A stretch of 64,000 nucleotides of DNA. It comes from Candidatus Stoquefichus sp. (lineage in GTDB: Bacteria > Bacillota_I > Bacilli_A > Erysipelotrichales > Coprobacillaceae). This document shows, piece after piece, positions 2,139-30,400 of this stretch (position 1 is its first letter; every line of letters begins with the position of its first letter). The notes beneath the pieces are model-generated. The model was not told the origin of the DNA. It worked only from the letters and a program-made list of their open reading frames with translations, and ran no database searches. A program made the position numbers and the translations under genes. The DNA lies in assembly GCA_021768625.1 (NCBI GenBank), contig JAETUM010000007.1, forward strand, positions 1 through 64,000, in the 5' to 3' direction.

Positions 2139-2160
2139 ATTATATAGAATAGCTTTTTGA

Positions 2161-2270
2161 TAACATGTTTTTTTATAAGTTAACATGTTTTTAAACAAGG
2201 GAGTTTTATTGTGAAGTTTTCTTCATTTTGTTAAAATTTGTTTATCAAATGAAGGCCTAATTTTGATAAA
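2161..2270 (+). promoter_or_regulatory. Control region of the GH4/PTS operon with repeats and candidate RpiR operator
   Basis: Two direct copies of TAACATGTTTTT start at 2161 and 2181 (20-bp period). Further down, TTTATCAAA (2241-2249) and TTTGATAAA (2262-2270) are perfect inverted arms 12 bp apart. RpiR-type proteins bind dyads upstream of the operon they control, so this dyad is a reasonable operator. No convincing -35/-10 pair was found, so the promoter itself is not placed. Confidence 0.4.
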
Positions 2271-2299
2271 AATTTGACAAAAAAAGTGAGGACAATGAA

Positions 2300-3715: not shown

Positions 3716-3740
3716 TGAATAAGATGAAAAGGAGAAAAAC

Positions 3741-5535: not shown

Positions 5536-5572
5536 TTAATGGATAATTTAGATGATTTATATTTGAGGTTAA

Positions 5573-6061: not shown

Positions 6062-6367
6062 TTAATAATACATTGATGGTGGAATACTGATAAATGCTTG
6101 AAAGCCTCCATCAATATAGTATGCTTGATAGTTTTGGTTATTTAATTCTAAAGCTAATTTTTTAGCAATATGCCCACTTTGACACATTAAGTAAATAGGT
6201 TTATTCTTTGATAAAGAAGGTAAGTATGATGAGAATTTTTCATATGGAATATTAACAAAGTTTTTGATATGAAGATCATCAAATTGATATTGATCTCTTA
6301 AATCAATAAAGTAGGCATCTGTATTTATAATGTGTGGTATATCTTGAGGATTAATAAAATAATTCAT
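6062..6367 (-). CDS. Single-domain rhodanese-like protein
   Basis: 101 aa, the size of a stand-alone rhodanese domain. It has the N-terminal DAYFIDLRDQYQFDDLHI segment (CH2A-like), the active-site loop CQSGHIA with a catalytic Cys near residue 75, and the C-terminal YIDGGFQAF strand-loop. Such proteins carry sulfur as a Cys persulfide in the cytoplasm. The stop codon TAA is formed by the TTAA that borders the adjacent IS remnant, so the insertion may have altered the last few residues. No partner gene identifies the sulfur pathway. Confidence 0.85.
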   Translation of the reverse strand: MNYFINPQDIPHIINTDAYFIDLRDQYQFDDLHIKNFVNIPYEKFSSYLPSLSKNKPIYLMCQSGHIAKKLALELNNQNYQAYYIDGGFQAFISIPPSMYY

Positions 6368-16397: not shown

Positions 16398-16781
16398 ATG
16401 GAAAGAAAATTATATATAAGTGATGAAGCTATTGAAAAATTTGATTTAGTTGAGTTTGATAGTGTAGAAGTTGATGATTATGTAGGTATTGCAGGTAATG
16501 ATTTTGTAGAATTAGAAAATGGTATATTGGTTACAAGAGATGATATGTACAATATCTATCTGTCAGTAAAAGAAGACGATGAAAGTTTTAATGATATTGA
16601 AGATTTGAGAAATAGTATTTTCATTACTTCCCATGAAAAAGTATTCAATATGAAAGAAATCTGTGAAAGAGCGAGTGTTCCTTATCAATCATATAAGAAC
16701 TGGAAACAGCGTAATTATAAAGGGTTGAGTGATTACAGATTAGAAAGAATTGTAGAAGAAATGAAAAAAGCGTGTGAATAA
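16398..16781 (+). CDS. Phage early protein with C-terminal helix-turn-helix-like segment
   Basis: 127 aa, not assigned to a named family. The N-terminal half is acidic with short beta-strands (DLVEFDSVEVDDYVGIAGND). Residues ~78-125 (NMKEICERASVPYQSYKNWK) resemble a helix-turn-helix. It has its own strong, operator-bearing promoter and is enclosed by a bidirectional terminator, so it is a self-contained regulatory unit outside the repressor/Cro pair. It may regulate the opposing miniprotein operon. Confidence 0.6.
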   Translation: MERKLYISDEAIEKFDLVEFDSVEVDDYVGIAGNDFVELENGILVTRDDMYNIYLSVKEDDESFNDIEDLRNSIFITSHEKVFNMKEICERASVPYQSYKNWKQRNYKGLSDYRLERIVEEMKKACE

Positions 16782-16789
16782 TAAATAGC

Positions 16790-16825
16790 AAAAAAGCCTA
16801 TCACATCATATGATAGGCTTTTTTT
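16790..16825. terminator. Bidirectional terminator
   Basis: AAAAAAGCCTATCA / TGATAGGCTTTTTT with a 7-nt loop, between the 127-aa gene and the convergent repressor gene. Confidence 0.92.
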
Positions 16826-16910
16826 ATTATCTAAATTTGTTACAAAATAACTCATTTTGTTAGATGTTTTGATTAAATGTATAGGTATTGTTATTTTGAA
16901 ATCAAGAAAA

Positions 16911-17375
16911 TTATTTTCGTTCTAATGTACTTTTAATTACTTTGTTTATGCTTGAAATATTTTTATGAGCAAGATCAAGAAACATACTTTTATATTTTTC
17001 ATCCTCTATATTTAAAACGTGTTGAATTTCAACAATTATATCGTAAACAAGTTTTTGGTTATCGTCAGTTTGTTTGAGTATTGATAAAGCAAGGTTTGCT
17101 AATTGATCAGGAAGTCCATCTCTTATTGCTTCCATTATCTCCATATCTTCCCATATCATTTTTTCTTTAATATCAGTTTCACCCCGCAAATAAGCACCAG
17201 AAACATTAAAATAATTTTCTAATATAGCCATACTTTTAGAATTTGGCTCACGTCGTGAATTTTCATAAGCAATAATAGCAGAAAGGCTGATACCAGTTTC
17301 ATCTGCAAGTTTTTTTTGAGTAAGATGTGCCTCATTTCTTAATTTTTTAATAGTTAATGCAATTTTGTTTCCCAT
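16911..17375 (-). CDS. Phage repressor, XRE (CI-like)
   Basis: 154 aa. Residues ~5-65 are a Cro/C1 helix-turn-helix (HLTQKKLADETGISLSAIIAYENSRREPN); the remainder is a helical dimerisation region without the Ser/Lys protease of LexA-type CI repressors, so induction would not use RecA-stimulated self-cleavage. It is divergent from the Cro-like gene across a 150-bp control region with three identical-type operators. It probably keeps the prophage silent. Confidence 0.85.
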   Translation of the reverse strand: MGNKIALTIKKLRNEAHLTQKKLADETGISLSAIIAYENSRREPNSKSMAILENYFNVSGAYLRGETDIKEKMIWEDMEIMEAIRDGLPDQLANLALSILKQTDDNQKLVYDIIVEIQHVLNIEDEKYKSMFLDLAHKNISSINKVIKSTLERK

Positions 17376-17415
17376 TTCATATCACCCTTTTCTCTAAAGA
17401 GTAGTATAACAAATA

Positions 17416-17508
17416 ATTATACGTACGTAAAATATAAAATAAATAATTTATATTTGACTTGTACGAAGGTATAATGTATAATACAATTAAGTTAGACGAA
17501 CGTATAAT
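17416..17508. promoter_or_regulatory. Lysogeny switch: three operators and early promoter
   Basis: The 13-bp word ATTATACNTNCGT occurs at 17416-17428 (plus) and, inverted, at 17463-17475 and 17496-17508. The early promoter TTGACT-17-TATAAT (17454-17482) contains the second site, and the third lies at the transcript start. The first site sits toward the repressor gene, where it could serve autoregulation. This layout matches a CI/Cro switch. Confidence 0.8.
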
Positions 17509-17525
17509 AAAAAGAGGTGATTTAT

Positions 17526-17732
17526 ATGTTAGTGGCAAAAAAGAATGAAATAAGAAAAAAAAGGATATCTTTACGTTTAAGTCAACGTCAATTATCAATT
17601 AAAGCTGGTTTACCAGATAATGCAATATGTAGAATTGAAAATGAAAATTTTAATTCAATTTATCCAATTAGAGCGAAAGCAATAGCTGAGGCATTGAATT
17701 GTTCTATACATGAATTATTCGAGGAAATATAG
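17526..17732 (+). CDS. Cro/Ner-like XRE protein
   Basis: 68 aa, a single helix-turn-helix (LRLSQRQLSIKAGLPDNAICRIE) with a short C-terminal dimer helix. The ATG at 17526 follows GAGGTGATTTAT; a GTG at 17517 is in frame. It is the first gene of the rightward early operon and the expected counter-repressor. Confidence 0.8.
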   Translation: MLVAKKNEIRKKRISLRLSQRQLSIKAGLPDNAICRIENENFNSIYPIRAKAIAEALNCSIHELFEEI

Positions 17733-17746
17733 AAAGGAGTAAAAAA

Positions 17747-18523
17747 ATGATTATTTTTTATGCTGATAGTGTAAACGATGCTTATCAAAAATTAAATGCA
17801 AAAGAATTTAATGAAGATATTAGAGGTTATTTATTAAGTAATAGAAATTGCATTGATAAAAATAATATTCTAAATCACTTTGAGTTGGATGCCTATGATG
17901 TTCATATTCAATCAAATGACTTAATTACTCAAAGTTCAAGATTAGCAATAGCATTTAAAACAGTGATTCTAGATGAATTTGATAAAATGTTTAATTCACT
18001 AACTTCAAATATTAGTTTTGAAAGTGAAAAACTCAACTATTCAGAAATAAATTTGAAAATAAATACTTTTAAGGAGAACTTAAAAATATTGAGGAAAGAA
18101 TATTCTTTAACTCAAAGAGAATTAGCAAAACAGCTCAATTTATCTGAGGAAACTATAAAAAATTATGAAGCAGGCAGAAGAGAACCTACTGGAAAAATTT
18201 TATGTAAATTATCTATTTTCTTTAAAGTTAATCCAATAGAGTTTATAGGTTTGTCGTTAGAAAATGATATAGATGATAATATCATTAACTTAGAATTTAT
18301 GGATATTGGAACGAAAATTCGTAATCAGCGAAAGAAAATGAACTTAAGTCAAATAGAGTTAGCACAATTATTACATATAGATCAAACAGCAGTTAGTCAG
18401 TGGGAAACTGGTAGAACAAAACCTAGTATGAATAGTTTGATTGAATTGGCTGAAATTTTAGAATGCGAAATTAGTGATTTAGTTGGGATAGATAAAAATC
18501 AAAGAAAGAGGAAAATAGAATGA
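17747..18523 (+). CDS. Regulator with tandem XRE helix-turn-helix domains
   Basis: 258 aa. An N-terminal ~95-residue region of unknown fold is followed by two complete Cro/C1 domains at ~107-165 (EYSLTQRELAKQLNLSEETI) and ~188-250 (KMNLSQIELAQLLHIDQTAV). Two domains on one chain would allow binding of adjacent half-sites. It is in the early operon 14 bp after the Cro-like gene and overlaps the next small gene by ATGA. Its target is unknown. Confidence 0.75.
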   Translation: MIIFYADSVNDAYQKLNAKEFNEDIRGYLLSNRNCIDKNNILNHFELDAYDVHIQSNDLITQSSRLAIAFKTVILDEFDKMFNSLTSNISFESEKLNYSEINLKINTFKENLKILRKEYSLTQRELAKQLNLSEETIKNYEAGRREPTGKILCKLSIFFKVNPIEFIGLSLENDIDDNIINLEFMDIGTKIRNQRKKMNLSQIELAQLLHIDQTAVSQWETGRTKPSMNSLIELAEILECEISDLVGIDKNQRKRKIE

Positions 18524-18666
18524 AAATATATGGAACATATAGAAATAAGACAGTTAGCAGAACAGTTTTTAGCAAGATTCAAGCATATGCAACTATTAAT
18601 CAAATGATAAGAGATGGAATAATAGATATTAATTGTGATTTTAGTCAATTAGATCAGTTACTTTAG
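18520..18666 (+). CDS. 48-aa early phage protein
   Basis: MKIYGTYRNKTVSRTVFSKI and onward to DFSQLDQLL. The ATG overlaps the previous stop (ATGA) and follows an AAAGAGG site. Not recognised. Its stop codon touches the first stem of RNA motif copy 1. Confidence 0.55.
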   Translation: MKIYGTYRNKTVSRTVFSKIQAYATINQMIRDGIIDINCDFSQLDQLL

Positions 18667-18737
18667 ACATTGGATTAATACCAATGTCAGCCTTAATGCA
18701 ACCAAAGACGGTCACAAGTCCGAAAAATGCAGAGTGA
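18666..18737 (+). ncRNA. Repeated structured RNA-like motif, copy 1 (upstream of MuA)
   Basis: Hairpin GACATTGG / CCAATGTC (18666-18688), then TGCA (18697-18700) pairing with TGCA (18728-18731) around an inner CGG / CCG stem (18709-18711 / 18720-18722) that closes the loop TCACAAGT. A conserved GAGTGA follows and the MuA ribosome site is 4 bp further on. The same architecture with compensating changes occurs at 21987 and 24805. Confidence 0.75.
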
Positions 18738-18753
18738 GGTGGGAGGTGTTGAT

Positions 18754-20688
18754 GTGGAGACATTAAGTGTAAATGAATATGCAAACATTAAAGGATGTAC
18801 TCCTAGAAATATCCGAAAGTTGATAACAAAAGGAAAAATAAAGGCTATTCCAACAATTAATCAAAAAAATAAAAAAGTGTTTCAAATTCCATTTGATTTC
18901 TTAAATGATGAAGAACAGGCTAAATATTATGAATCAAAAGGAATCATTAAAAGCGAGATTAAAGTATCTAGTACTGAAGCACTTGAAGATATGACTCCTG
19001 AAGAAAGAGAAGAATGTATTTTTTGGGAAAAGGTTGTTAAGGAGTGGCAATTATACAGGAGTAAAGAAGGTGTAAAGAGTAAGGAAGATGTTGATAATCT
19101 GTTCATTACAAAGATGAAACTTGAATATCCTAGCATTGATATTTCTTATGATATTTTACGAAGAAAATACATTGCTTTGAAAAATGAGGATTTAAAAGGT
19201 CTTATTGATAAAAGAGGAAAAGCCAAAAAAGGTTATTCTAAAATCAATAATGAAGTTATACGAGTATATTTAAGTTTTTATTTAGATCAAGCTAATCATT
19301 CTCAAAAGAAATGTTATGAGTATACAAAAGATTTTCTTAGAGGTGAAGGAAAAGATGAACTGGTGGATAGCATACCATCCTATACAACCTTTACAAGATA
19401 TATTAAAAATAAAATACCTGATGGACTTATAATTCTTGGAAGATATGGAGAAAAAGCCTTTGATGATAAATGTGCGCCTTACATTGTAAGAAGTTATGAT
19501 GATATGGAATCTAATGATTACTGGATTGGTGATAACCATACAATAGATGTCCTTATTGGTGACACTGGAAATCAATTTAAATTATATTTAACAGCTTTTA
19601 TGGATGCACGAAGTGGAGTTATTACTTGTGTATATTTAACAGATAATCCTTCATCACAAGCTTCCATATATTCTTTGAGAAGAGGGATAATTAAGTATGG
19701 AATACCTAAAAATGTATATCTAGATAATGGTAGAGAGTTCTTAACTTTTGATTTTGGTGGTAGAGGTCACAGAGCAAAGAAAAATGATGATAGATATGCT
19801 CCTCCTCCAATACTTGAACGTTTAGGGATTAATATGGTCAATGCCATTGTAAGAAATGCAAAAGCCAAAACTATTGAAAGAAGATTTCTAGATTTTAAAA
19901 ATAATATTTCTAAGCTATTTACTACTTATATTGGTGGAAATGTAATAGAAAGACCAGAGATATTGAAGGTTGAGTTAAAAAATGGAAATATTCCTGATAG
20001 AGAAACATTCATTAAACAGATAGAGGATCTTATTGAATATTATCTTAATTATGAACCGTATAATGGCTCAGTGGCAAAAGATAGAGGTAAGAGAAAAATT
20101 GATGTATATAAAGAAAACTTACATACTAAGATTATGGCTACTGATGAAGATTTAAGCTTAATGATGTTAAGGTCTACAAGAACTCAAAAGGTCACAAGAA
20201 ATGGAGTGCATCTTAATATTAAAGGAGCGAAAATCAACTATAGAAATAATGATTTAGTTATGCAGTGTTTAAATAAAGAAGTTTATTTAAGATATGATCC
20301 TGATGATTTAAGCAAGGTAAGAATTTATGATCTTGATGATAGATTTATTATAGAGGCTGAAAGAATTACACCATTACCTTATGGGGCTAGTCAAGAAGAT
20401 GTTAAAAAAGCAATGGCTGAAACAAGGTCTGTCAAGAAAGCAACTAAACAAGTTCTCAAACATAGTGTTATTGAAGGAATCGATAGGAATACAGCACTTG
20501 AATTAATACTTAAAAAAGTTGAAGAAAATAAGAAAACTGATGTTGCAGATGCTGGATTAAAAGATATTGTTGTTAAAAGTGCAGATGAAACACCATTACT
20601 ATATCAAATGCCAGTCATTGATCTAGAAAAAATGAATAAAAACTCGTTGATAAGAAAGGGAGGATATGAAAATGTCAACAACAGTTAA
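18754..20688 (+). CDS. MuA-like DDE transposase
   Basis: 644 aa from the GTG at 18754, chosen because GGGAGG lies 7 nt upstream; the ATG at 18727 is inside the RNA motif. It catalyses integration and replicative transposition. Residues ~5-50 form the Mu-type winged-helix end-binding domain (SVNEYANIKGCTPRNIRKLI). The RNase H-like core has Asp260 (GDNHTID), Asp324 (YLDNGREF) and Glu375 (AKTIERRF), with spacing close to MuA. The Mu C-terminal beta-barrel (~455-540) and a helical tail that contacts MuB follow. The MuB-like gene overlaps its last 17 bp. Confidence 0.95.
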   Translation: METLSVNEYANIKGCTPRNIRKLITKGKIKAIPTINQKNKKVFQIPFDFLNDEEQAKYYESKGIIKSEIKVSSTEALEDMTPEEREECIFWEKVVKEWQLYRSKEGVKSKEDVDNLFITKMKLEYPSIDISYDILRRKYIALKNEDLKGLIDKRGKAKKGYSKINNEVIRVYLSFYLDQANHSQKKCYEYTKDFLRGEGKDELVDSIPSYTTFTRYIKNKIPDGLIILGRYGEKAFDDKCAPYIVRSYDDMESNDYWIGDNHTIDVLIGDTGNQFKLYLTAFMDARSGVITCVYLTDNPSSQASIYSLRRGIIKYGIPKNVYLDNGREFLTFDFGGRGHRAKKNDDRYAPPPILERLGINMVNAIVRNAKAKTIERRFLDFKNNISKLFTTYIGGNVIERPEILKVELKNGNIPDRETFIKQIEDLIEYYLNYEPYNGSVAKDRGKRKIDVYKENLHTKIMATDEDLSLMMLRSTRTQKVTRNGVHLNIKGAKINYRNNDLVMQCLNKEVYLRYDPDDLSKVRIYDLDDRFIIEAERITPLPYGASQEDVKKAMAETRSVKKATKQVLKHSVIEGIDRNTALELILKKVEENKKTDVADAGLKDIVVKSADETPLLYQMPVIDLEKMNKNSLIRKGGYENVNNS

Positions 20689-21616
20689 ACAAAGATTAGA
20701 AAATCACATGAAAGAGAGTGGAATTTCTCAGGCAAGAATTGCTCCACTCATGGGAGTGAGCATGTCAGCATTATCTCAGTACCGTAATAATAAGTATAAA
20801 GGTGATGAGAAAGCAATAGAAGTGAAAATTGTAGAGTATCTCAACACTGTTGAACAACAAAAGACAATGCAAGAGAAGATTAAAGAGTATAAGGGGGATG
20901 AAGATTATATTCCAATATCCACCAGTGAAGATGTTTACAAAATGATTAGATATGCTCAATTGAATGGTGGTATTGCAGTAGCACATGGAGATGCTGGAAT
21001 AGGAAAGACTAAAGCTGCACAGAAATTTGTAAGAGAGAATCCAACACAAGCTATTTACATAGAAGCGTCTCCTATATCTGGAACACTTACAAATATGTTA
21101 AGAATGTTAGCAAGAGCTTTAAAGCTCCCACAGTCAACAAATAAATTCAATCTGATGATGGATATTAGAGATAAATTGGAAGGAACAAACAGAGTCATCA
21201 TTATTGATGAGGCTCAACATTTAAAACTATCTGCAATAGAGCAGATAAGAACACTTGCTGATCCTAATAGTATAACAGGAACTAAGGGTGTAGGGATTGT
21301 TTTTATAGGAAATACAGAGGTTTACTCACGTATGAAGGGAAAACAAGAGGCACAGTTTGCTCAATTGTTTTCTAGGATAAAGATGAGTAGATACTATACA
21401 ACATTTAATGTCAAAGAAGAGGATGTTGAAATGCTTTTTCCAACATTAAAGGAAAAAGGAATGAAAAAAGAATTAGGCTTTCTAATGAGTGTATGTAAAT
21501 CAAAATGGGGAATCAGAGGAGCAACTAATGTATATGAAAATGCTATTAATAATGAAGATATCAGTTTTGATGGCTTGTTTGCAATGGCTAGAACATTAGG
21601 AATAGAGGTGATTTAA
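20672..21616 (+). CDS. MuB-like AAA+ target-DNA ATPase
   Basis: About 314 aa. An N-terminal XRE-type helix-turn-helix (~18-40, SQARIAPLMGVSMSALSQYR) is followed by an AAA+ domain with Walker A GDAGIGKT (106-113), Walker B RVIIIDEAQH (~178) and a sensor-like GNTEVY. MuB polymerises on DNA, directs target choice and confers immunity. The ATG at 20672 has GGGAGG 8 nt upstream. Overlap with the transposase gene indicates coupled translation. Confidence 0.93.
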   Translation: MSTTVKQRLENHMKESGISQARIAPLMGVSMSALSQYRNNKYKGDEKAIEVKIVEYLNTVEQQKTMQEKIKEYKGDEDYIPISTSEDVYKMIRYAQLNGGIAVAHGDAGIGKTKAAQKFVRENPTQAIYIEASPISGTLTNMLRMLARALKLPQSTNKFNLMMDIRDKLEGTNRVIIIDEAQHLKLSAIEQIRTLADPNSITGTKGVGIVFIGNTEVYSRMKGKQEAQFAQLFSRIKMSRYYTTFNVKEEDVEMLFPTLKEKGMKKELGFLMSVCKSKWGIRGATNVYENAINNEDISFDGLFAMARTLGIEVI

Positions 21617-21703
21617 ATGGATTGGAGAGTTCAAATTACTTTGATTATAAGTGCTACGATTGTTACTTTGTGTATTTTAGGAAATAGAAAGGAAAATAAA
21701 TAA
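21617..21703 (+). CDS. 28-aa membrane miniprotein
   Basis: One TM helix (VQITLIISATIVTLCILG) with GAGGTGAT ribosome site directly after MuB and a 1-bp gap to the next gene. Function unknown. Confidence 0.45.
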   Translation: MDWRVQITLIISATIVTLCILGNRKENK

Positions 21704-21704
21704 G

Positions 21705-21998
21705 ATGAAAAAATTAAGAGTAAAAAGTAATGTCATATTAATGCTTTTAGGAATTATAGTTGGATTTTTGATTTCAATGATTCTCAAAGAGCTATCAATG
21801 AAATATATATTTATGTTCATAGCTTTGCTATTTCTAATGACTATGAGTTTGTCATGGGTTATTACAAATGAATTTGATCTAAAAATTATGAATGCATATG
21901 AAAGAGGAATACAATCTGCTAAAAACCTATCTCCTAAACATATGAATTGTAAATGTGGTCCTAATCCATATGCTAATGAGGATAAAGAGAGCATTTAG
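21705..21998 (+). CDS. Two-helix membrane protein of the early region
   Basis: 97 aa with two TM helices (~9-27 and ~32-51) and a cytosolic tail with a Cys pair (NCKCGPNPY). It follows an AAGG site. Not recognised. Its stop codon lies in the loop and stem of RNA motif copy 2. Confidence 0.6.
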   Translation: MKKLRVKSNVILMLLGIIVGFLISMILKELSMKYIFMFIALLFLMTMSLSWVITNEFDLKIMNAYERGIQSAKNLSPKHMNCKCGPNPYANEDKESI

Positions 21999-22053
21999 CT
22001 CTCCAGTAATGTAGCCAACGAAGGTCACAAGCCCTTGAGTAATACAGAGTGAT
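21987..22053 (+). ncRNA. Repeated structured RNA-like motif, copy 2
   Basis: Hairpin GAGAGC / GCTCTC (21987-21992 / 21998-22003) includes the stop codon of the 97-aa gene. TGTA (22010-22013) pairs with TACA (22043-22046), a double compensating change relative to the TGCA/TGCA of the other copies. Inner stem AAGG / CCTT closes the loop TCACAAGC. GAGTGA and the GGAGGTGAGG ribosome site of the next gene follow. Confidence 0.75.
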
Positions 22054-22066
22054 GGAGGTGAGGAAA

Positions 22067-22225
22067 ATGAAACGTTCATGTTTAAATTGTACACATTGTA
22101 AATATGTTGGATTGTTTTGTAATTCAAGTTTTAAGTGTGCAAAGAAAATTATCTTCTTTGATAATCATACATTTATAAGAAGTATATTTTGTAGATTTTA
22201 TAAACTAAAGGAGCATATAAAATGA
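22067..22225 (+). CDS. 52-aa cysteine-rich miniprotein
   Basis: Six Cys residues (5, 8, 11, 18, 24, 42), beginning CLNCTHCKY, suggest a small metal-binding fold. It has a strong GGAGGTGAGG site right after RNA motif copy 2 and ends in an ATGA overlap with the next gene. Not recognised. Confidence 0.55.
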   Translation: MKRSCLNCTHCKYVGLFCNSSFKCAKKIIFFDNHTFIRSIFCRFYKLKEHIK

Positions 22226-22311
22226 CAGTAATAACAGATGATTTTATAGCATCACAGAGTGAATACAACAATCATATATGGATAGAGATAAAAGTAAAAA
22301 ATGTACTGTAA
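22222..22311 (+). CDS. 29-aa short gene
   Basis: It starts in the ATGA overlap with GGAG 9 nt upstream and encodes MTVITDDFIASQ to VKNVL. It is too short to classify and may be a coupled miniprotein or a decayed gene. Confidence 0.3.
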   Translation: MTVITDDFIASQSEYNNHIWIEIKVKNVL

Positions 22312-22386
22312 AGAATATAGGATAAAAATTATTTACTGACAAAATATGCAAATAACAGAATTTGTTATAAATGTGGAGGAACAAAA

Positions 22387-23088
22387 ATGAATAAAGATTT
22401 TGAAATGATGTGGAAGAAGATATTTGAAAATCATGTTGCTACTGTACAAGAAATAGATAAAGATACACAAATTCTTTCATGGAAAGAAGATGGAACTATT
22501 GTTTACTCTTTAGAATTCATATTTAGAGAAAATAAAGTCTATGTTGGTGGAGATTTAGGTTATGGAACATTTTTTACAACATGGATTCCAAGATGGAATT
22601 CAGATTGGGAACATATTAATCCTAGTTACTTTGCAGAAAAATGTGTATGCATTAAAAATGAAAGGTATGTATGGGATGAAGAACAAGCATTATCCAATTT
22701 AAAGAAAGAGTATGAAAGTTCATTATCTGACAAATATAGTGAAAGTGAATTTGAAGGAATATTCAATCAAGTTGAGGAGCTAGCTGATAGTTGGAATGAT
22801 GATTGGGTATTAGTAGAAGATGAAGATGTGTTTATTGAAAATGAGAATAACATTGAATATTTAAAACAAATGTGGTGTGTAATTAAAACTTTAAGATGTA
22901 CTAGTACACAAGAAGAGTATGTATATACATTACAAAATGATCATGATTTTAGTGACTTTAATGATTTTTGGGAATGGGGATATAATGTTGGACGAAAACT
23001 TAATGGATATTTTTCAATTTGGATTATTGCATTGAGAATGGCAAAACAACAACTTCTAAATAATCATATGAAGATAGAGGACATGTAA
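22387..23088 (+). CDS. Hypothetical early phage protein, Trp/acid-rich
   Basis: 233 aa with strong TGGAGGAAC site. Rich in Trp, Asp and Glu (FFTTWIPRWNSDWEHI, DSWNDDWVLVEDEDVF); the low charge balance is typical of DNA-mimic or host-takeover proteins, but no family is recognised. The stop is adjacent to the HAD gene start, so expression is coupled. Confidence 0.55.
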   Translation: MNKDFEMMWKKIFENHVATVQEIDKDTQILSWKEDGTIVYSLEFIFRENKVYVGGDLGYGTFFTTWIPRWNSDWEHINPSYFAEKCVCIKNERYVWDEEQALSNLKKEYESSLSDKYSESEFEGIFNQVEELADSWNDDWVLVEDEDVFIENENNIEYLKQMWCVIKTLRCTSTQEEYVYTLQNDHDFSDFNDFWEWGYNVGRKLNGYFSIWIIALRMAKQQLLNNHMKIEDM

Positions 23089-23448
23089 ATGGATAAAAAA
23101 ATATATGCATTTGATTTTGATGGAACACTGGTAAGAAATTGTTTCCCAAATATAGGTACACCTATATCAAGTGTTATAAACTTAGCCATAAACTTAAAAG
23201 AAAAAGGACATTATATTATTCTCAATACGATGCGTGAAGGAAGATATCTTGATGAAGCATTGATATTTTGTAAAAAAATGGGATTAGAATTTGATGCAGT
23301 TAATGATAATTTGCCACATATGAAAAAATTCTATAAAAACAATCCAAGAAAGATATTTGCAAATTACTATATAGATGACCATAACTTATTCATAGAAGAA
23401 ATTAATAGATTGCTTCTTTTAGATGATTTTGAAAAAGGGGATGTTTAA
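23089..23448 (+). CDS. HAD-superfamily phosphatase-like protein
   Basis: 119 aa. The first motif FDFDGTLV (residues ~5-12) gives the nucleophile and acid/base Asp; a motif II-like LNTMRE and the late acidic pair in YYIDDHN complete a minimal HAD core without cap. Such small HAD proteins in phages act on nucleotides or 3'-phosphates; the substrate is not deducible. Confidence 0.75.
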   Translation: MDKKIYAFDFDGTLVRNCFPNIGTPISSVINLAINLKEKGHYIILNTMREGRYLDEALIFCKKMGLEFDAVNDNLPHMKKFYKNNPRKIFANYYIDDHNLFIEEINRLLLLDDFEKGDV

Positions 23449-23450
23449 AA

Positions 23451-23681
23451 ATGGAAGGTAAAGAATTTGTAACAAGACTTCTTAATGTAGAAAAATATAA
23501 AAAGATATATGAAGAAAATGCTTATTTTAGAAGACAAATAAATAATCTTAAAAATAAAGCTCGGATACATACACAGGACTTAATTGAATGTATGGTTTAT
23601 TTAAGTAATGAGCTTGTAGAAAAAGATTTTGACATGATTGATCATGCAGAACAAAGTTATTTGATGGAGGATATATTATGA
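23451..23681 (+). CDS. Hypothetical helical protein
   Basis: 76 aa, wholly helical and charged (YKKIYEENAYFRRQINNLKN), probably a short coiled coil. The start is 2 bp after the HAD stop and it overlaps the next gene by 4 bp. Not recognised. Confidence 0.5.
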   Translation: MEGKEFVTRLLNVEKYKKIYEENAYFRRQINNLKNKARIHTQDLIECMVYLSNELVEKDFDMIDHAEQSYLMEDIL

Positions 23682-24088
23682 GAATTAGAGATAGGATGTA
23701 TTTTGAACCAAGAGTTGTCACTGAGACAGGATATTTGAACTGGTATAACGAAAGATATTCAAGCAATGAACTTTTGCATCATGCTGAATCAACTGTTTAT
23801 GTAAGAGACAGTGGAAAACGTTTGTATATTTATGCTTTAACAAAAGATGATGGGACAATCGCAATGCTTAAAATTATTGATGAGATTGAAAAGAAAACAG
23901 AAAATACCTGTTATGGTTATAAATTTGGTGAAATTAATGTAGAAAAAGAACAAGAACTATTAAAAAAGATTAATCAATGCAAAACAGATTTACAATCAAC
24001 ATCATCTGCAAAAAGACAGAGAGATCTAAATAAGAATTTAAAAAGATTATATAAGCAGTTAAAGAAGGTACGTAGAAATGTTTCTTAA
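23678..24088 (+). CDS. Hypothetical protein with basic C-terminal coiled coil
   Basis: 136 aa. An N-terminal alpha/beta region is followed from ~90 by a Lys/Gln-rich helix ending in KRLYKQLKKVRRN. ATGA-type overlaps on both sides place it in the early operon. The basic tail may bind nucleic acid. Not recognised. Confidence 0.5.
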   Translation: MRIRDRMYFEPRVVTETGYLNWYNERYSSNELLHHAESTVYVRDSGKRLYIYALTKDDGTIAMLKIIDEIEKKTENTCYGYKFGEINVEKEQELLKKINQCKTDLQSTSSAKRQRDLNKNLKRLYKQLKKVRRNVS

Positions 24089-24683
24089 AAGAAATGTCTT
24101 ATTTAATATTATAGTTGTAGTAATTATGTTGATAAGTTGTTCTTATGTATGTTACCAATGTGAATTGTTAGAAGAAACGAGGGCATTAAGTAATATACAG
24201 TTTTTAAAGGATGTTATTAGTTATCATAAAACAATAAACTATTATGATATTCCTTTAGATCAAAAACATCAGGATTATATTATTTCAAAATGTAAAGAGA
24301 AAGATATTGATGTTGAGCTTGTACTGGCAGTGATGAAAGTAGAAAGTAATTACAATTTTGATATTATATCAAGAACGAATGATTATGGTGTGATGCAAGT
24401 CAATAAAATCAATCATAAATGGTTAAAAAAAGAATTAAATATAAATGATTTTCTTAGTTTTTATGATAATACAAATGCAGGCATACATATATTAAGTCAA
24501 TATAAGTGGTGTGAAAGTGAAACGCAAATGTTGATGTGTTATAACATGGGAGTTTCTGGAGCAAAGAGATTATGGAAAAAGGGAGTATATGAAACAACTT
24601 ACACAAAAAAAGTATTACAAGCAAAAAAAGAGATAGGAGATAAAAAATATGAAATCAAGATATTTTGTGGTAAAAACGCTTAA
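24078..24683 (+). CDS. Membrane-anchored lytic transglycosylase (SLT/goose-lysozyme fold)
   Basis: 201 aa. An N-terminal TM (VLFNIIVVVIMLISCSYVCY) precedes an SLT domain (~70-190) with catalytic Glu in VMKVESNYNF, the glycine turn DYGVMQVN, and MLMCYNMGVSGAKR. It cleaves peptidoglycan glycan strands outside the membrane. The gene is unusual in lying among early genes, 20 kb before holin and endolysin, which argues against a simple lysis role. Confidence 0.85.
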   Translation: MFLKRNVLFNIIVVVIMLISCSYVCYQCELLEETRALSNIQFLKDVISYHKTINYYDIPLDQKHQDYIISKCKEKDIDVELVLAVMKVESNYNFDIISRTNDYGVMQVNKINHKWLKKELNINDFLSFYDNTNAGIHILSQYKWCESETQMLMCYNMGVSGAKRLWKKGVYETTYTKKVLQAKKEIGDKKYEIKIFCGKNA

Positions 24684-24816
24684 TGGTGAAAAGAAATTTG
24701 CAAGAGTAAGTGATGAAATGACATCAGATGAGTTTAAAAAAATATTTATTGATGTTGCTAAAGAGGTGCATCCAATCACAAAAGAAGAATATAAAGCGTG
24801 TACTGGAGAGGAGTAA
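24649..24816 (+). CDS. 55-aa hypothetical protein
   Basis: Overlaps the transglycosylase gene by 35 bp and has GGAGATAAAAAAT upstream. Acidic, small (MKSRYFVVKTLNGEKKF...). The stop codon is in the loop of RNA motif copy 3. Not recognised. Confidence 0.5.
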   Translation: MKSRYFVVKTLNGEKKFARVSDEMTSDEFKKIFIDVAKEVHPITKEEYKACTGEE

Positions 24817-24873
24817 ACTCTCCTGCTTAATGCAACCAACGGAGGTCACAAGTCCTCGTATAATGCAGAGTGA
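24805..24873 (+). ncRNA. Repeated structured RNA-like motif, copy 3
   Basis: Hairpin GGAGAG / CTCTCC (24805-24810 / 24818-24823) with the upstream stop codon in the loop; TGCA (24831-24834) pairs with TGCA (24864-24867); inner GAGG / CCTC (24842-24845 / 24854-24857) closes TCACAAGT; GAGTGA follows. The AAGGAGG site of the AbrB-like gene is 12 bp further. Confidence 0.75.
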
Positions 24874-24899
24874 GCATATAAGAAAAGGAGGAAAAAAAG

Positions 24900-25172
24900 A
24901 TGAATAAACCAATGTATAAAAAGGTTTCAAAAGTTGGTGGTATCACTATTCCGTCACAATTAAGACATTCATTGAATATTCCAAAAGGTACTGCAGTTGA
25001 GATTAGAACTACACCAGATGATGAAATCATTATTAAAAAGCATATTCCTACTTGTTTGTGCTGTGGGGCTGCAGATAATGTTAAAGTCATCAATGAAGTT
25101 GAGCTTTGTGATGAATGTGCAAAAAAATTTGTAATAGGAGTTGATACTGATGGAAATGACAATGAGAGATAA
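24900..25172 (+). CDS. AbrB/SpoVT-like DNA-binding protein with zinc ribbon
   Basis: 90 aa. Residues ~5-50 (KKVSKVGGITIPSQLRHSLN, GTAVEIRTTPDDEIIIKK) are a swapped-hairpin AbrB domain. Residues 54-76 carry CLCCG and LCDEC, a C-x2-C / C-x2-C ribbon that probably binds zinc. AbrB proteins are transition-state regulators; the fused ribbon suggests an added protein or nucleic-acid contact. It lies immediately after RNA motif copy 3. Confidence 0.8.
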   Translation: MNKPMYKKVSKVGGITIPSQLRHSLNIPKGTAVEIRTTPDDEIIIKKHIPTCLCCGAADNVKVINEVELCDECAKKFVIGVDTDGNDNER

Positions 25173-25788
25173 AGTTGATCGTTATGCTGTTCTTCAGACA
25201 ATTATTGAAAATTCTAAAAAGGAACAGGATTCATTAAAATCATTTTTCGAAACGCAGGCTGAAGAAGATCTAGAAAATACTAAACTTAAGACTGTTGAAT
25301 ATTGGGGAAGTAAAAGCAAGATTGTTGTTCAAAACTCTGCAACCGTTAAACCAATTTCATGGGTAGCAGTAAAAGAAGTTTTAGGTAAAACAGCGAATGA
25401 TTTTATTAAAGAAGAAACAAAGTATACGCTTAATGATGTTGCGAAAACAATGCTTGCAAATATGTTTAAAGGTGATTATATAGAGGATAGTCTTGAAAAT
25501 GTTGTTTCTAAAATAACAGAAAATAAAAAGAAACAAAATGTTCTTATGAAGAGACTAAAAGGTAAATATAAGCAAGATATGAAAAATATCATTAAGTATG
25601 CTGAGCTTGATGAATCAGAAGCAAGTGATTATGCGTTTATGATACAAGAAGTTATGGCATATCAAATGATATTAAGAATTATAGAATCCTCAGGTTTTAA
25701 AGGAACTGTAGAGGAAGCAGTATCTAAAGTTAAGAGTGCTTTGATTGTTGATGAAGGAATTAAGGTAACTTTAGAAACAGAAAAATAG
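25150..25788 (+). CDS. Hypothetical early protein in the position of Mu Gam
   Basis: About 212 aa from the ATG at 25150, which has GGAG 9 nt upstream and overlaps the AbrB-like gene. An N-terminal coiled region precedes KTVEYWGSKSKIVVQNS. Its place before GemA corresponds to that of Gam in Mu, but no convincing sequence match is seen, so a DNA-end-protection role is only positional inference. Confidence 0.45.
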   Translation: MEMTMRDKVDRYAVLQTIIENSKKEQDSLKSFFETQAEEDLENTKLKTVEYWGSKSKIVVQNSATVKPISWVAVKEVLGKTANDFIKEETKYTLNDVAKTMLANMFKGDYIEDSLENVVSKITENKKKQNVLMKRLKGKYKQDMKNIIKYAELDESEASDYAFMIQEVMAYQMILRIIESSGFKGTVEEAVSKVKSALIVDEGIKVTLETEK

Positions 25789-25802
25789 AAAGGAGCGATT
25801 TT

Positions 25803-26252
25803 ATGAGGGCTGTTGAAAATTGGCAAAAGAAAAAAATATATGCAATTGCTGGAGCATTAAAATTTGTTGATAAAACCGATAAAGAAAATGATATCTTACA
25901 TATGATCATATTTAATATGACAAATAAAGAGTCAGTCAAAGACCTCACTTATAACCAAGCAAATAAAGTTATTGATTATCTCAAACAACAGCAGGATAAA
26001 TCGCTTGTTGAAAATATGAGTGAGGGGCAAAAGAAAAAAGTATTTTCATTAATGTATCAGTTAAAGGATTTAGATGGTGAGCCTAATATAATCCCAATAG
26101 GCGAAAGGTTGTCAGGAATTATTGAAAGACAGTTCAAGGTTAGATCGACACCTAAGTACCTTTTCACTAACCTTTCAAAAGATGATGGAAATAAACTTAT
26201 TGAGATATTGAAAAATTATATTGGAACTGCAGAAAGGAAGTATATGAATTGA
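25803..26252 (+). CDS. gemA: GemA-like (Mu gp16, DUF1018) regulatory protein
   Basis: 149 aa. It has the DUF1018 outline: N-terminal helix QKKKIYAIAGALKFVD, the central LTYNQANKVIDYL, a second helical repeat GQKKKVFSLMYQLK and C-terminal LSKDDGNKLIEILKNYIG. In Mu, GemA modulates host gene expression and DNA supercoiling. Start after AAAGGAGCGATTTT. Overlaps the Mor-like gene (TTGA). Confidence 0.75.
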   Translation: MRAVENWQKKKIYAIAGALKFVDKTDKENDILHMIIFNMTNKESVKDLTYNQANKVIDYLKQQQDKSLVENMSEGQKKKVFSLMYQLKDLDGEPNIIPIGERLSGIIERQFKVRSTPKYLFTNLSKDDGNKLIEILKNYIGTAERKYMN

Positions 26253-26566
26253 CAGAATTTGAAATTAATGATCTAAACAGTGAACAAAAGGATCTAGTAG
26301 ATATTATTGGTCTAGAAGCATTCAATAAGTTAGTGTTTCATTATGGAGGATCTCAAATATATATTCCAAAAACTGATACAATAGAAAGACAGAGAAGAAA
26401 TGCTAAAATATGCAATGAATACAGGCATGGAAAAGCATTGAAATTTCTAGCAAATAAATACAATTTAACAGAAACACAAATAAGAACGATTCTATCTGAT
26501 GTATATGTAAAGAAATGTGATCATACAGTTATCGGACAGATGTCATTAGACTTCAATGAAATGTAA
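26249..26566 (+). CDS. Mor/C-type transcription activator
   Basis: 105 aa, probably from the TTG at 26249 (GGAAG upstream, overlapping the gemA stop). It matches the Mor family: IIGLEAFNKLVFHYGGSQIYIPK (dimer domain) then a helix-turn-helix with HGKALKFLANKYNLTETQIR. Mor activates the Mu middle promoter by contacting RNA polymerase at promoters lacking a good -35. A terminator follows, so the next operon likely depends on this protein. Confidence 0.85.
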   Translation: MTEFEINDLNSEQKDLVDIIGLEAFNKLVFHYGGSQIYIPKTDTIERQRRNAKICNEYRHGKALKFLANKYNLTETQIRTILSDVYVKKCDHTVIGQMSLDFNEM

Positions 26567-26614
26567 ATAAAGTCTTTGGGAAATAACCATTTTTCTCAAG
26601 GGCTTTATTTTTTT
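26565..26614 (+). terminator. Terminator of the early operon
   Basis: AAATAAAGTCTT / AAGGGCTTTATTT, with an inner AAAT/ATTT pairing, followed by a seven-T run. It separates early genes from the gp25-27/NusG operon. Confidence 0.85.
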
Positions 26615-26665
26615 GTTGATTTTAAATTAGGTAAAATGTGAGTTGTAATAAGCGAGGTGGATATT

Positions 26666-26977
26666 ATGGCAAATATTGATGTTGTTGGATATGTTGTGAC
26701 TGGTGCAATTGCTGTTGTTGGTTTCTTTTTAAAGAGGACAATGAATAGATTAGATACAACAGAAAAAGATGTACAAACGATTAAAGAAAATTATGTCAAA
26801 GAAACAGATCATAAAGAATCACTTCAAAATATTAATGATGAAATAAAGGAAGTCAAGAGTGATATTAGAACAATTAATGACAAATTTCTAACCAAGGAAG
26901 ATTTTTTCAGGGAACAACGAAAAACTGAAAAACAGTTAGAAAAGATTATAAACATTTTATTAAAAAGTGAGGGATAA
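26666..26977 (+). CDS. Membrane coiled-coil protein (DUF2730, Mu gp25-like)
   Basis: 103 aa from the ATG at 26666 (GAGGTGG upstream). A single TM (VVGYVVTGAIAVVGFFL) is followed by a long heptad helix. This is the arrangement of Mu gp25/DUF2730, whose function is unknown. It is first in the operon after the terminator; a TAAAAT box at 26632 without a matching -35 could be the Mor-dependent promoter. Confidence 0.6.
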   Translation: MANIDVVGYVVTGAIAVVGFFLKRTMNRLDTTEKDVQTIKENYVKETDHKESLQNINDEIKEVKSDIRTINDKFLTKEDFFREQRKTEKQLEKIINILLKSEG

Positions 26978-26979
26978 AA

Positions 26980-27318
26980 ATGGATAATGAAGCAATGAAA
27001 AGAAAGTTATATGCTCAAAACTTTAAAAGTAATAATGGACTTGTTCTAAGAACAATCAACATTCTTAGATATCAATATCATAAATTAACAGATATTGAAA
27101 AAGTTTTAGAAGGAGAAGGCATCGAGCAATGGGAATTTATAGATGCAATCAATTATTTATCTATGTCTGAATATATAAAGATGAAATCATTAAAGACTCA
27201 TGATGAAGTTAAAGAAATTTCTCAATATACAGATTATAGAATTTTAGAAGCTAAGCTATCTCCCAAAGGAATAAAAATATTATCAGGAACAATTGTTGAT
27301 GAAGATGTTGAGGTTTAG
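26980..27318 (+). CDS. Winged-helix protein, Mu gp26-like
   Basis: 112 aa. LVLRTINILRYQYHKLTD, EQWEFIDAINYLSMSEYIKM and AKLSPKGIKILSGTIVDEDV follow the helix-helix-wing pattern of the Mu gp26 family (winged helix ending in LTxKGxxxxxG). It lies between gp25-like and gp27-like genes exactly as in Mu. The role is unknown. Confidence 0.65.
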   Translation: MDNEAMKRKLYAQNFKSNNGLVLRTINILRYQYHKLTDIEKVLEGEGIEQWEFIDAINYLSMSEYIKMKSLKTHDEVKEISQYTDYRILEAKLSPKGIKILSGTIVDEDVEV

Positions 27319-27320
27319 CT

Positions 27321-27860
27321 ATGGCTAATAGAAAACATTCCAAAATAGATGCACTTCCTGATGAGTTGAGATTAGCAGTTGAAGATATGTTGATGACAGG
27401 CAGTACGTATAACGATATTGTAAAGTTTCTTAAGGAGAATGAACAAAGTGTTAGCATAGCTGCAGTTTGTCGATATGCTAGAGCATTTAATGCCAATCTT
27501 GAACAATTGAGAATGGCTAATGAAAATTTTAGAAATATGATGGATGAGATCAATCGTTATCCAGATCTTGATACAACAGAAGCTATCATACGTATTGCTT
27601 CAGGTAATATGTTTAATCGTTTAGCAAATGCCAAAGAGGAGGATTGGGATAACTTTAAGTTGGATAAGCTCTTAAAAGAAACGAACGGTTTGATTAGAGC
27701 GACGGCTTACAAAAAGAGAATTGATCTTCAAAACAAAGAAATAAAAGATGCAGCCATTGATGAAATGAAAGGATTAATGTTTCAGGAGATGGCGAAAGAC
27801 AATCCACAGCTTTATAAGACGGTTGTCGAGTATCTTAATTCTAAAAAGAATAAGGAGTGA
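27321..27860 (+). CDS. Small terminase-like protein (DUF3486, Mu gp27)
   Basis: 179 aa. SKIDALPDELRLAVEDMLMT and SIAAVCRYARAF form the helix-turn-helix seen in DUF3486 proteins, thought to be the small terminase subunit of Mu-like phages, which recognises the packaging end. It overlaps the NusG-like gene. The large subunit follows beyond the structured leader. Confidence 0.8.
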   Translation: MANRKHSKIDALPDELRLAVEDMLMTGSTYNDIVKFLKENEQSVSIAAVCRYARAFNANLEQLRMANENFRNMMDEINRYPDLDTTEAIIRIASGNMFNRLANAKEEDWDNFKLDKLLKETNGLIRATAYKKRIDLQNKEIKDAAIDEMKGLMFQEMAKDNPQLYKTVVEYLNSKKNKE

Positions 27861-27865
27861 TAATT

Positions 27866-28378
27866 ATGTGGTATGTCTTACAAGTCGCAGGGAACAAAGA
27901 AGAAAGAATAAGAGATGATTTAATATCAAAAGGTTATCAAGCTTTAGTTCCATGTGAAAATAGATTAATTAGAAGCAAAGGTTCTTGGATAAAGAAAAAA
28001 TATATTATTTTTCCTAACTATGTCTTTGTGAAACTGGATAAATATAAAGCAGAGCATTATTACAAGATTACTAATATAGAAGGGGTTGCTAAATTCTTAG
28101 GCGATAAAAGAAATCCTTCAACATTAACATTTTTAGAAAGTGAATGGATTAGAGTTTTAGGAGCGAATGGGATTATTGAACCTACAACAGTAGAAATTGT
28201 TAATGGTAATTTGAAAGTTGTGAAAGGTGTACTTGAAAATTTTAAAAGCAGATTTAAAAGTTTTGATTTAAGACATAAAAAAGCAGAGTTTGAAATAACA
28301 ATCTGTAATGAAATCAAAAAAATTACATTAAGTATTGAAGTTATTAATAGTGATGAACAAGATATTGAAGATGATTAA
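27866..28378 (+). CDS. NusG/LoaP-family transcription elongation factor
   Basis: About 170 aa from the ATG at 27866 (GGAG 9 nt upstream). Residues 1-~100 are an NGN domain (WYVLQVAGNKEERI, FPNYVFVKL, GVAKFLGD); ~115-170 a KOW-type barrel (NLKVVKGVLENFKSRFKSFD, EITICNEIKKITLSIEVI). The host surely has its own NusG, so this is a specialised paralogue, as LoaP in Firmicutes operons. LoaP suppresses termination after recognising an RNA hairpin in the leader of its target. Here a hairpin starts within the stop codon and two terminators lie ahead of the late genes. Confidence 0.85.
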   Translation: MWYVLQVAGNKEERIRDDLISKGYQALVPCENRLIRSKGSWIKKKYIIFPNYVFVKLDKYKAEHYYKITNIEGVAKFLGDKRNPSTLTFLESEWIRVLGANGIIEPTTVEIVNGNLKVVKGVLENFKSRFKSFDLRHKKAEFEITICNEIKKITLSIEVINSDEQDIEDD

Positions 28379-28401
28379 GGGTTGATTCGTCCCCTTGATC
28401 A
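28372..28401 (+). promoter_or_regulatory. Leader hairpin 1, candidate antiterminator (LoaP) recognition element
   Basis: TGATTAAGGG pairs with CCCTTGATCA (one T-G pair, 10 bp) around a 10-nt loop. No T run follows. It overlaps the stop codon of the NusG-like gene and is the first element of the late leader. Confidence 0.6.
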
Positions 28402-28406
28402 AATTC

Positions 28407-28472
28407 AAAGGACATAAAAAAGCTTAATTCAATTTAAAAATAAGATTGAATCGGCGAAGCATGTCCTTTTTT
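28407..28472 (+). terminator. Leader terminator 1
   Basis: AAAGGACAT / ATGTCCTTT closing stem, inner GCTT / AAGC and ATTCAAT / ATTGAAT stems, then six T residues. A strong intrinsic terminator before the late operon. Confidence 0.85.
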
Positions 28473-28573
28473 ATAAAAAAGATATTCATTCAATCGTGAA
28501 TACCTTTTAAAAAGCACAAAAACCCTTTCAATTTTTGTGTAAATAAAATAAACAAGTTATTGAGGGTGCTTAT

Positions 28574-28611
28574 AAAAAAGTCGCTTAAAATTGAAAATTT
28601 GGCGATTTTTT
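28574..28611 (+). terminator. Leader terminator 2
   Basis: A-run plus TCGC / GCGA plus T6, with a 17-nt loop, ending 8 bp before the terminase ribosome site. Confidence 0.7.
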
Positions 28612-28633
28612 AATTTGGGAGGAAGTGAGAAGA

Positions 28634-30400
28634 ATGAGTAAGTCTAAAAACAGTGCTTTAGATGTGCTTTTGGGGGGGATATTTGAAGCTGAAAGAATAG
28701 AACTTGATGATGAAGATACTGAAAAAGAAGAGTATGAAGCATATCTTAAAAACCTTTTAAAAGAATTTTTACAAAAAGATAGTAATACTACAAGAGTAAA
28801 ACTTTTACAAGATTTTCAAAATGGAGCACCTCTTACAGGAGAGAATGGATTAAGAAAAAAACTGGCTTCATTTGACATGGAGTTTTTCGGACGAGCATAT
28901 CTTCCACATTATTTCGTTAGAAAATCTCCTAAATTTCATGAGGAATTAGATAACATCTGGAGTGATGGTGTTTTAAAGGGAAATATTCCTTTAACGAGAG
29001 CAGTTAGAAAAAAGATTTCACGATTGAAAGGTTGTAAGAGAGCTATTGCAGCTCCTCGTGGACATGCAAAAAGTACGACTCTTACTTTCAAAGGATCTCT
29101 TCATGCAACATTATATGAATACAAGCATTACATTATTATTTTATCAGACAGTTCCGATCAAGCTGAAAGTTTCCTAGATGCTATAAAAACTGAGTTAGAG
29201 GAAAATGAGCATATTATTGAAGATTTTGGGATTCTTGAAGGTAATAAGGCTTGGAGATCTAATGTTCTTTTAACAAAAAGTAACATAAAGATTGAAGCTA
29301 TTGGATCAGGTAAGAAGATTCGTGGTCGTAAACATAAGAATTGGAGACCGGATCTGTTAATTCTTGATGATATTGAAAATGATGAGAATGTTAGAACTTT
29401 GGAGCAAAGAAAAAAGCTTTCAAATTGGTTTTACAAAGCAGTATCTAAAGCTGGTGATGATTATACTGACATCGTGTATATTGGAACAATGCTTCATTAT
29501 GATAGCTTATTAGCTAATGTTATGAAAAATCCCAGTTATAAAGCTATTAAGTATAAAGCTGTCCTTTCTTTTTCGCATAGTGAATTATGGGATGAATGGG
29601 AAACGATATATACAGATATATCTAATAGCAATCATGAGCAGGATGCTTTGGATTTCTTTAATGATCATAAACAAGAAATGCTTGATGGAACTGAAGTACT
29701 TTGGGAAGATAAGCTATCTTATTATGATCTGATGACAATTAAGGTGTCTGAAGGTGATGGATCATTTAACTCAGAACTTCAAAATGATCCAATAAATCCA
29801 GAAGATTGTTTGTTCAATCCAGAATGGTATGACTTCTATAATGAACTTGAAACTATCTTTAACTCAAAAGATTATAAGTTTTATGGTGCAGTTGATCCAT
29901 CATTAGGAAAAAGTAATAAATCAGATTATTCAGCAATCATTACAATTGCTAAACATAAAGTCACTGGTTATATGTTTGTCATTGATGCAGATATTGCAAG
30001 AAGACATCCAGATAAGATTATTAATGATATTTTAGAAAAACAAAAGTGGTTGCGTTTAACATATGGTGTAGGTTATGAAAAGTTTGGTTGTGAAACAGTA
30101 CAATTTCAGTGGTTTTTGAAAGAAGAGCTTGCAAAAGCTTCAGCAAGAGCAGGACTTTATCTTCCTATCGAGGAAATTAATAGCACTGCTGATAAAGTGT
30201 TAAGAATTCAAAGCTTACAACCAGATATTAAAAATAAGTACATTAAATTCAATCCAAAACATAAACTTTTACTTGAGCAAATGAGCCAATTTCCTATGGG
30301 AAGCCATGATGATGGAATTGATTGTCTCGAAATGGTTCGTACTATTGCCAAAAAAGGTAAGAGGTTCAGAATACTTGATAAGAGTCTGTTTGGAATATAG
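28634..30400 (+). CDS. Terminase large subunit
   Basis: 588 aa from the ATG at 28634 (GGAGG ~10 nt upstream). It packages DNA into the prohead. ATPase motifs: Walker A AAPRGHAKST (~residues 138-147), Walker B DLLILDDIEN (~246) and a coupling motif YIGTML. The nuclease half has GAVDPSLGKSNKSDYSAI (first acidic residue) and the late acidic DDGIDCLEM. It resembles Mu gp28/SPP1-type terminases. First gene of the late operon. Confidence 0.93.
   Translation: MSKSKNSALDVLLGGIFEAERIELDDEDTEKEEYEAYLKNLLKEFLQKDSNTTRVKLLQDFQNGAPLTGENGLRKKLASFDMEFFGRAYLPHYFVRKSPKFHEELDNIWSDGVLKGNIPLTRAVRKKISRLKGCKRAIAAPRGHAKSTTLTFKGSLHATLYEYKHYIIILSDSSDQAESFLDAIKTELEENEHIIEDFGILEGNKAWRSNVLLTKSNIKIEAIGSGKKIRGRKHKNWRPDLLILDDIENDENVRTLEQRKKLSNWFYKAVSKAGDDYTDIVYIGTMLHYDSLLANVMKNPSYKAIKYKAVLSFSHSELWDEWETIYTDISNSNHEQDALDFFNDHKQEMLDGTEVLWEDKLSYYDLMTIKVSEGDGSFNSELQNDPINPEDCLFNPEWYDFYNELETIFNSKDYKFYGAVDPSLGKSNKSDYSAIITIAKHKVTGYMFVIDADIARRHPDKIINDILEKQKWLRLTYGVGYEKFGCETVQFQWFLKEELAKASARAGLYLPIEEINSTADKVLRIQSLQPDIKNKYIKFNPKHKLLLEQMSQFPMGSHDDGIDCLEMVRTIAKKGKRFRILDKSLFGI

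Follow-up and report, generated by a model that had tools for sequence, protein, structure and literature searches.

The 64,000-nucleotide (nt) stretch of Candidatus Stoquefichus sp. DNA analysed here (contig JAETUM010000007.1, positions 1 to 64,000; hereafter the window) carries a Mu-like prophage with three copies of a structured RNA at stop/start junctions between genes. By sequence and predicted structure, these copies are type-P1 twister self-cleaving ribozymes. Each is preceded by a further hairpin, here termed P0, whose presence depends on the permutation of the ribozyme behind it. The ribozyme alone belongs to a known kind; the new part is the module of ribozyme plus P0, of which P0 is the least described and most informative portion. 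The presence of the hairpin tracks the end that the ribozyme would leave unpaired, which points to a role in protecting the 3' terminus of the upstream mRNA, and the module probably serves a "cut and cap" form of operon processing, in which mRNAs would be separated and transcription not terminated.

An earlier note on this DNA placed the copies correctly, at 18666-18737, 21987-22053 and 24805-24873. They group as one 46-nt repeat family, and a search of the organism's own genome (138 contigs) gives strong matches at these three places only. A default Rfam scan at the gathering cut-off returns nothing at the three copies. Scanned by E-value, all of them match the twister-P1 model RF03160 along model positions 1-68, with 39.8-44.5 bits and E-values of 3e-7 to 7e-6. 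They are missed at the default threshold because the RF03160 gathering score is very high (67.2 bits, above all three); a relative that bears the optional P3 stem, at 62.5 bits, also falls under it, and the cut-off is a curation threshold rather than a structural feature. The shortfall in score arises largely because the window copies have no P3, as judged from the alignments and from the absence of this stem in about 20% of twisters (PMC5408937). The Rfam scan yields no hammerhead match at the copies, the CUGANGA plus GAAA core not being found there, and Rfam scans give no glmS match. The earlier note had called the motif undescribed and outside any Rfam family, and had named membership of a known family as grounds for abandoning that view; the ribozyme core has such membership. 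Its broader suggestion of a structured RNA at gene junctions, with RNA processing among several candidate roles, survives without the label of an undescribed motif.

The conserved strings and concerted changes of paired segments described in that note are real and correspond to twister helices. Its outer pairings (TGCA/TGCA, TGTA/TACA) are P2, and its inner ones (CGG/CCG, AAGG/CCTT, GAGG/CCTC) are P4, which encloses the TCACAAGY loop. P1, which pairs the 4 nt ahead of TAA with the 4 nt that follow GAGTG, was overlooked, as were both pseudoknots, and the motif reaches 3 nt further 3' than had been claimed, the P1' strand lying at 18737-18740, 22052-22055 and 24873-24876 in copies 1, 2 and 3. 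T1 joins L4 to L1 by three pairs (CAC of the TCACAAGY loop with GTG of GAGTG), and T2 joins L2 to L4 by two (L2 contributes AC or GC, the TCACAAGY loop GT or GC). TAA, TCNCAAG and GAGNG are present in all copies, providing the U-A cleavage step by P1 and the conserved bases of L1 and L4. From what is known of the family (PMC5408937), cleavage is expected between the U and A of TAA. The copies thus share P1, P2, P4, T1, T2, the U-A step and the conserved loops with the type-P1 twister (RF03160; PMC5408937), and differ from it in the missing P3, in a T1 of CAC/GUG instead of CCC/GGG, and in P0, which lies outside the Rfam model.

All features of the three modules are on the + strand. In copy 1, P0 (18666-18688; 8-bp stem GACATTGG/CCAATGTC, -10.7 kcal/mol) begins on the last base of the stop codon TAG 18664-18666; the ribozyme follows at 18690-18740 (44.5 bits, E 3.1e-7, backed by covariation in relatives), with P1 pairing 18690-18693 to 18737-18740 and predicted cleavage at U18694/A18695. 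In copy 2, P0 (21987-22003; 6-bp stem GAGAGC/GCTCTC, -9.2 kcal/mol) has the stop TAG 21996-21998 at its loop, and its last base is the first base of P1; the ribozyme spans 22003-22055 (39.8 bits, E 6.7e-6), with predicted cleavage at U22007/A22008. Copy 3 has a P0 at 24805-24823 (6-bp stem GGAGAG/CTCTCC, -10.2 kcal/mol) that holds the stop TAA 24814-24816 in its loop, and a ribozyme at 24824-24876 (41.5 bits, E 2.2e-6; predicted cleavage U24828/A24829). The third hairpin reported by the earlier note is therefore real, touching the stop codon in the first copy and carrying it in the loop or at the loop edge in the other two.

Relatives were sampled from viral contigs, since genomes nearer to the host gave few usable matches: MuA matches in same-family genomes are weak and partial only, and at the threshold applied twisters or type II hammerheads turn up in few genomes of the class or phylum. 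In the first 17 kb of the Bacillus Mu-like phage BalMu-1, a scan found no Rfam match. A first, loose pattern (GGTCNCAAGNCC...GAGNGA) gave many chance matches among those listed, and tighter patterns were used after it. The viral-contig scans produced 107 distinct copies among the matches listed, extracted with a pattern that tested P2 pairing only. In these, T2 shows the combination GCC/C in 95 copies and ACC/T in the other 12, never a mixture, and the middle pair of T1 is A-U in 99, U-A in 4, C-G in 3 and G-C in 1, with no mismatch. P1 pairs in register in 74, 94, 93 and 73% of copies, pair by pair, versus 33-48% overall when slid. An alignment of 40 sequences pairs 96.6% of cells, versus 75.0% in shuffles and 21-43% in slid structures; changes on both sides of a pair occur in 139 cells versus 34.6 in shuffles (covariation 0.548 versus 0.134), counts that are inflated by relatedness of the sequences. 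Paired cells reach 86% in P1, 100% in P2 and 99% in P4, with double changes in all three helices. T1 and T2 are 100% paired in the 40 (T1 middle pair AU/CG/UA/GC; T2 outer pair GC/AU), but their extraction demanded these pairs, and the proper evidence for both pseudoknots is therefore the 107-copy count. The search likewise demanded a paired P2 and the strings of L4 and L1, whereas P1 was never demanded in any extraction. The larger alignment suggested by the earlier note thus gives covariation in P1, P2 and P4, joined by T1 and T2 in the 107-copy set. Columns invariant among the 40 relatives are all kept in the window copies, which have P2, T1 and T2 intact and a P1 that is paired except for end pairs. 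A purely protein-coding origin was ruled out, as each copy falls between a stop and a start codon and the covariation is that of an RNA.

P0 is also seen in relatives. The 34 nt directly 5' of P1 fold with a mean of -9.4 kcal/mol (z -1.8), and segments elsewhere within about 160-190 nt have z values mostly near -0.2 and at lowest -0.6. Stems of at least 5 bp abut P1 in 51/58 copies with a near stop codon versus 186/621 stop-matched control segments (p 3e-18); in 20 of the 51 the hairpin overlaps the stop codon, and in 31 it follows. The tail from P0 to the cut has a median of 5 nt in twisters and 6 nt in type III hammerheads. The earlier note had described the hairpin as unrelated in sequence between copies, and this holds more widely: at the slots before the AbrB and MuA genes P0 persists with unrelated sequences, and what is maintained is therefore its structure. 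Intrinsic termination by P0 was considered and rejected, with no + strand terminator-like site at the copies and a U-tract behind P0 in 2/140 relatives.

The occurrence of P0 follows ribozyme permutation. When a type-P1 twister or type III hammerhead cuts, its 5' product ends as a bare single strand; with a type I or II hammerhead, the closed stem III of the ribozyme, followed by one base, forms that end. A P0 that serves the 5' product is therefore expected solely with the first two. The hammerhead sets, enlarged by three further viral scans, consist of the pattern matches listed, in uncurated alignments; all loci were found by rules blind to the DNA upstream of the ribozyme, copies whose upstream DNA was over 60% identical were dropped before stems were counted, and one hammerhead alignment was excluded for a locus in the wrong orientation. 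Among the matches listed, stems of at least 6 bp occur in 74/128 twisters and 32/52 type III hammerheads, versus 44/198 of type I and 25/147 of type II; the rate in shuffles, which preserve base composition and not dinucleotides, is 11-14%. The contrast is significant for twisters (p 1e-10 versus type I, 2e-12 versus type II) and for type III (2e-7 and 5e-9), and mean z values run in parallel, at -1.76 for twister, -2.36 for type III, -0.53 for type I and -0.43 for type II. Contexts are comparable among the types, since 77, 75, 83 and 90% of twister, III, I and II copies, respectively, are located after stop codons. On 13 contigs that carry both kinds, stems of at least 5 bp are found in 14/16 versus 8/24 (p 0.001), and with contigs weighted equally the fractions are 0.76 and 0.84 versus 0.34 and 0.35. 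Smaller earlier samples gave the same trend. One 92.7-kb viral contig (L328) has at least five hammerhead-pattern matches in about 4.3 kb (1892-6179, + strand).

Ribozyme places are kept among Mu-like phages whose MuA proteins are 37-99.7% identical. The AbrB slot holds a twister in all 10 phages examined (the window, L134, L084, L160, L121, L189, L138, L150, L265 and L266), and the slot after MuB holds one in the window, L134, L084, L160 and L121. At the MuA slot, a twister is found in the window, L162, L134, L084 and L160, and a type II hammerhead in L121, L138, L150, L265 and L266; P0 is present in 5/5 of these twisters versus 0/5 of the hammerheads. Because unrelated ribozymes are exchanged at one and the same slot, these data suggest that the conserved feature is the cut. 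The position just after a stop codon is shared by 75% of copies, versus 19% of random positions. The claim that the three copies are no simple duplication is borne out, with P0, P1 and P4 varying among copies and the slots conserved across phages. A near-identical phage (L136 and L162; IMG/VR 3300006217_002236), whose DNA matches most of the region at 93-99.6% identity, retains the MuA-slot twister and its P0.

The genes behind the copies are those named in the earlier note. Copy 1 precedes a MuA-like transposase gene (18754-20688; Mu-transpos_C, HTH_Tnp_Mu_2), whose likely start is GTG 18754, inferred from GGAGG at 18743-18747; copy 2, a Cys-rich miniprotein without a Pfam match (22067-22225, ATG start presumed); and copy 3, an AbrB/MazE-domain protein (24900-25172; PF04014), all on the + strand and drawn from mechanically called open reading frames (ORFs). 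The + strand run comprises a two-domain XRE regulator, a small ORF, MuA, MuB, a membrane protein, the Cys-rich miniprotein, several small proteins, an SLT lysozyme and the AbrB/MazE protein. No terminator-like site was found on the + strand from 17300 to 26565, and a single transcript over the region is therefore plausible. The sole such site on that strand within 17300-28700, with 19 pairs at 26565-26610 directly behind an ORF ending at 26566, is possibly the end of the early operon. Further out, a strong terminator-type hairpin (AAAAAAGCCTATCA...TGATAGGCTTTTTT) at 16764-16867 is seen on both strands, with weak sub-threshold Rfam matches on either. A RAGATH-28 RNA (RF03052, 54.5 bits, above cut-off) lies at 28376-28460 on the + strand, between a phage NusG-like gene and the terminase gene, and its order relative to NusG is the same in L121, L134, L160, L265 and L266. 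Its loop UUCGUC could pair with a 3' GGCGAA as a pseudoknot, and the NusG paralogue may recognise this RNA in a LoaP-like antitermination of late genes.

The cut-and-cap proposal is built on class membership, placement, the presence of P0 and its permutation dependence, and slot conservation, all of which are observed. In it, each ribozyme in the early transcript would cut at the U-A of UAA, just 3' of the first P1 strand, after the stop codon of the upstream gene and ahead of the downstream gene's ribosome site. This would give the upstream mRNA a 3' end composed of P0, a tail of about 5 nt and a terminal 2',3'-cyclic phosphate. Bacterial 3' exonucleases are halted by hairpins with short tails, and PNPase should act poorly on an end that carries a 2',3'-cyclic phosphate; like a terminator hairpin, the P0-capped end should withstand 3' exonucleases, with transcription continuing. 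The downstream mRNA would begin with a 5'-hydroxyl and the remaining ribozyme fold, just before its ribosome site. From this we infer cleavage in vivo, protection from exonucleases and separate mRNA fates for four segments of the operon: the regulators; MuA, MuB and the membrane protein; the small genes with the lysozyme; and AbrB onward.

Several observations weigh against this proposal. P0 is absent or weak in about one quarter of twister copies, and some slots of L084 and L160 have a weak one of 4 bp; hammerhead types I and II stand slightly above their shuffles (22% and 17% versus 14% and 11%). By analogy with glmS, moreover, the outcome for the downstream gene may on balance be negative, as the 5'-hydroxyl product of glmS cleavage in B. 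subtilis is degraded by RNase J1 (PMC3997798). That precedent, together with the position of every copy directly before a ribosome site, makes it possible, if doubtful, that the ribozymes lower expression of the gene behind each of them by opening a 5'-hydroxyl entry for RNase J1, with P0 merely sparing the upstream gene. Down-regulation is compatible with P0 but does not by itself explain it, the slot genes include MuA, which the phage needs, and no ligand-sensing domain is seen. P0 might instead aid folding, insulating the ribozyme from upstream coding RNA or stacking on a short open helix (P1 or stem III); it adjoins P1 at a fixed spacing, and P1 is just 4 bp. This role is unlikely, as type I and II hammerheads present a short open helix beside coding sequence at the same kind of junction, yet do so without P0.

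The remaining alternatives concern the ribozyme itself. Scores under the RF03160 cut-off could signify twister relics that have lost activity and persist by chance or as spacers. Such decay is very improbable given the complete retention of invariant columns, the intact P2, T1 and T2 and nearly full P1, a score gap that stems largely from the absent optional P3, and the persistence of slots and P0 across wide divergence. An undescribed RNA that serves as a translational operator, binds a protein or signals reinitiation, as the earlier note envisaged, would suit the position between stop codon and ribosome site, but scarcely any weight can be given to it when all three copies match twister-P1 over its whole length with pseudoknots kept, and unrelated hammerhead ribozymes occupy the same slot.

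Earlier work describes twister ribozymes and type P1, and also the enrichment of twisters, with hammerheads, near Mu-like phage genes. The 5' product of the glmS ribozyme is not a coding mRNA. The glmS system resembles the present one in self-cleavage before a coding sequence, giving a 5'-hydroxyl mRNA in a Firmicute, and differs in its other fold, its ligand dependence and the decay of its downstream mRNA (PMC3997798). Closer in setting are clustered prophage hammerheads, for which processing of phage transcripts into gene-length mRNAs was proposed in 2011 and cleavage was demonstrated both in vitro and in E. coli (PMC3088659); there too, several self-cleaving ribozymes flank the genes of one phage transcript, but the class is another and the text does not describe an upstream cap hairpin. 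This enrichment of twister and hammerhead ribozymes is reviewed in a 2023 account that called the reason unknown (PMC10085705). The gene setting is the same, with several ribozyme classes in similar places, and the relevant passages of that account mention no permutation-dependent hairpin. A literature search, its scope not extending to the twister discovery papers, likewise found no mention of one, and the novelty of the cap hairpin is provisional.

The cut-and-cap proposal suggests a reason why Mu-like phages carry such ribozymes. It is somewhat favoured, with less assurance than for the window itself, that phage self-cleaving ribozymes are in general devices of this sort, selected through the 3' end of the upstream mRNA, each permutation either ending its 5' product in a hairpin of its own (hammerhead I and II) or recruiting an adjacent one (twister P1 and hammerhead III). 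If true, this would give phages terminator-like 3' ends inside an operon with transcription kept, and would explain the swapping of unrelated ribozymes at the same slots. Permutation dependence would also offer a predictive rule for other ribozyme classes, and the ribozyme with its P0 a portable part for splitting bacterial operons.

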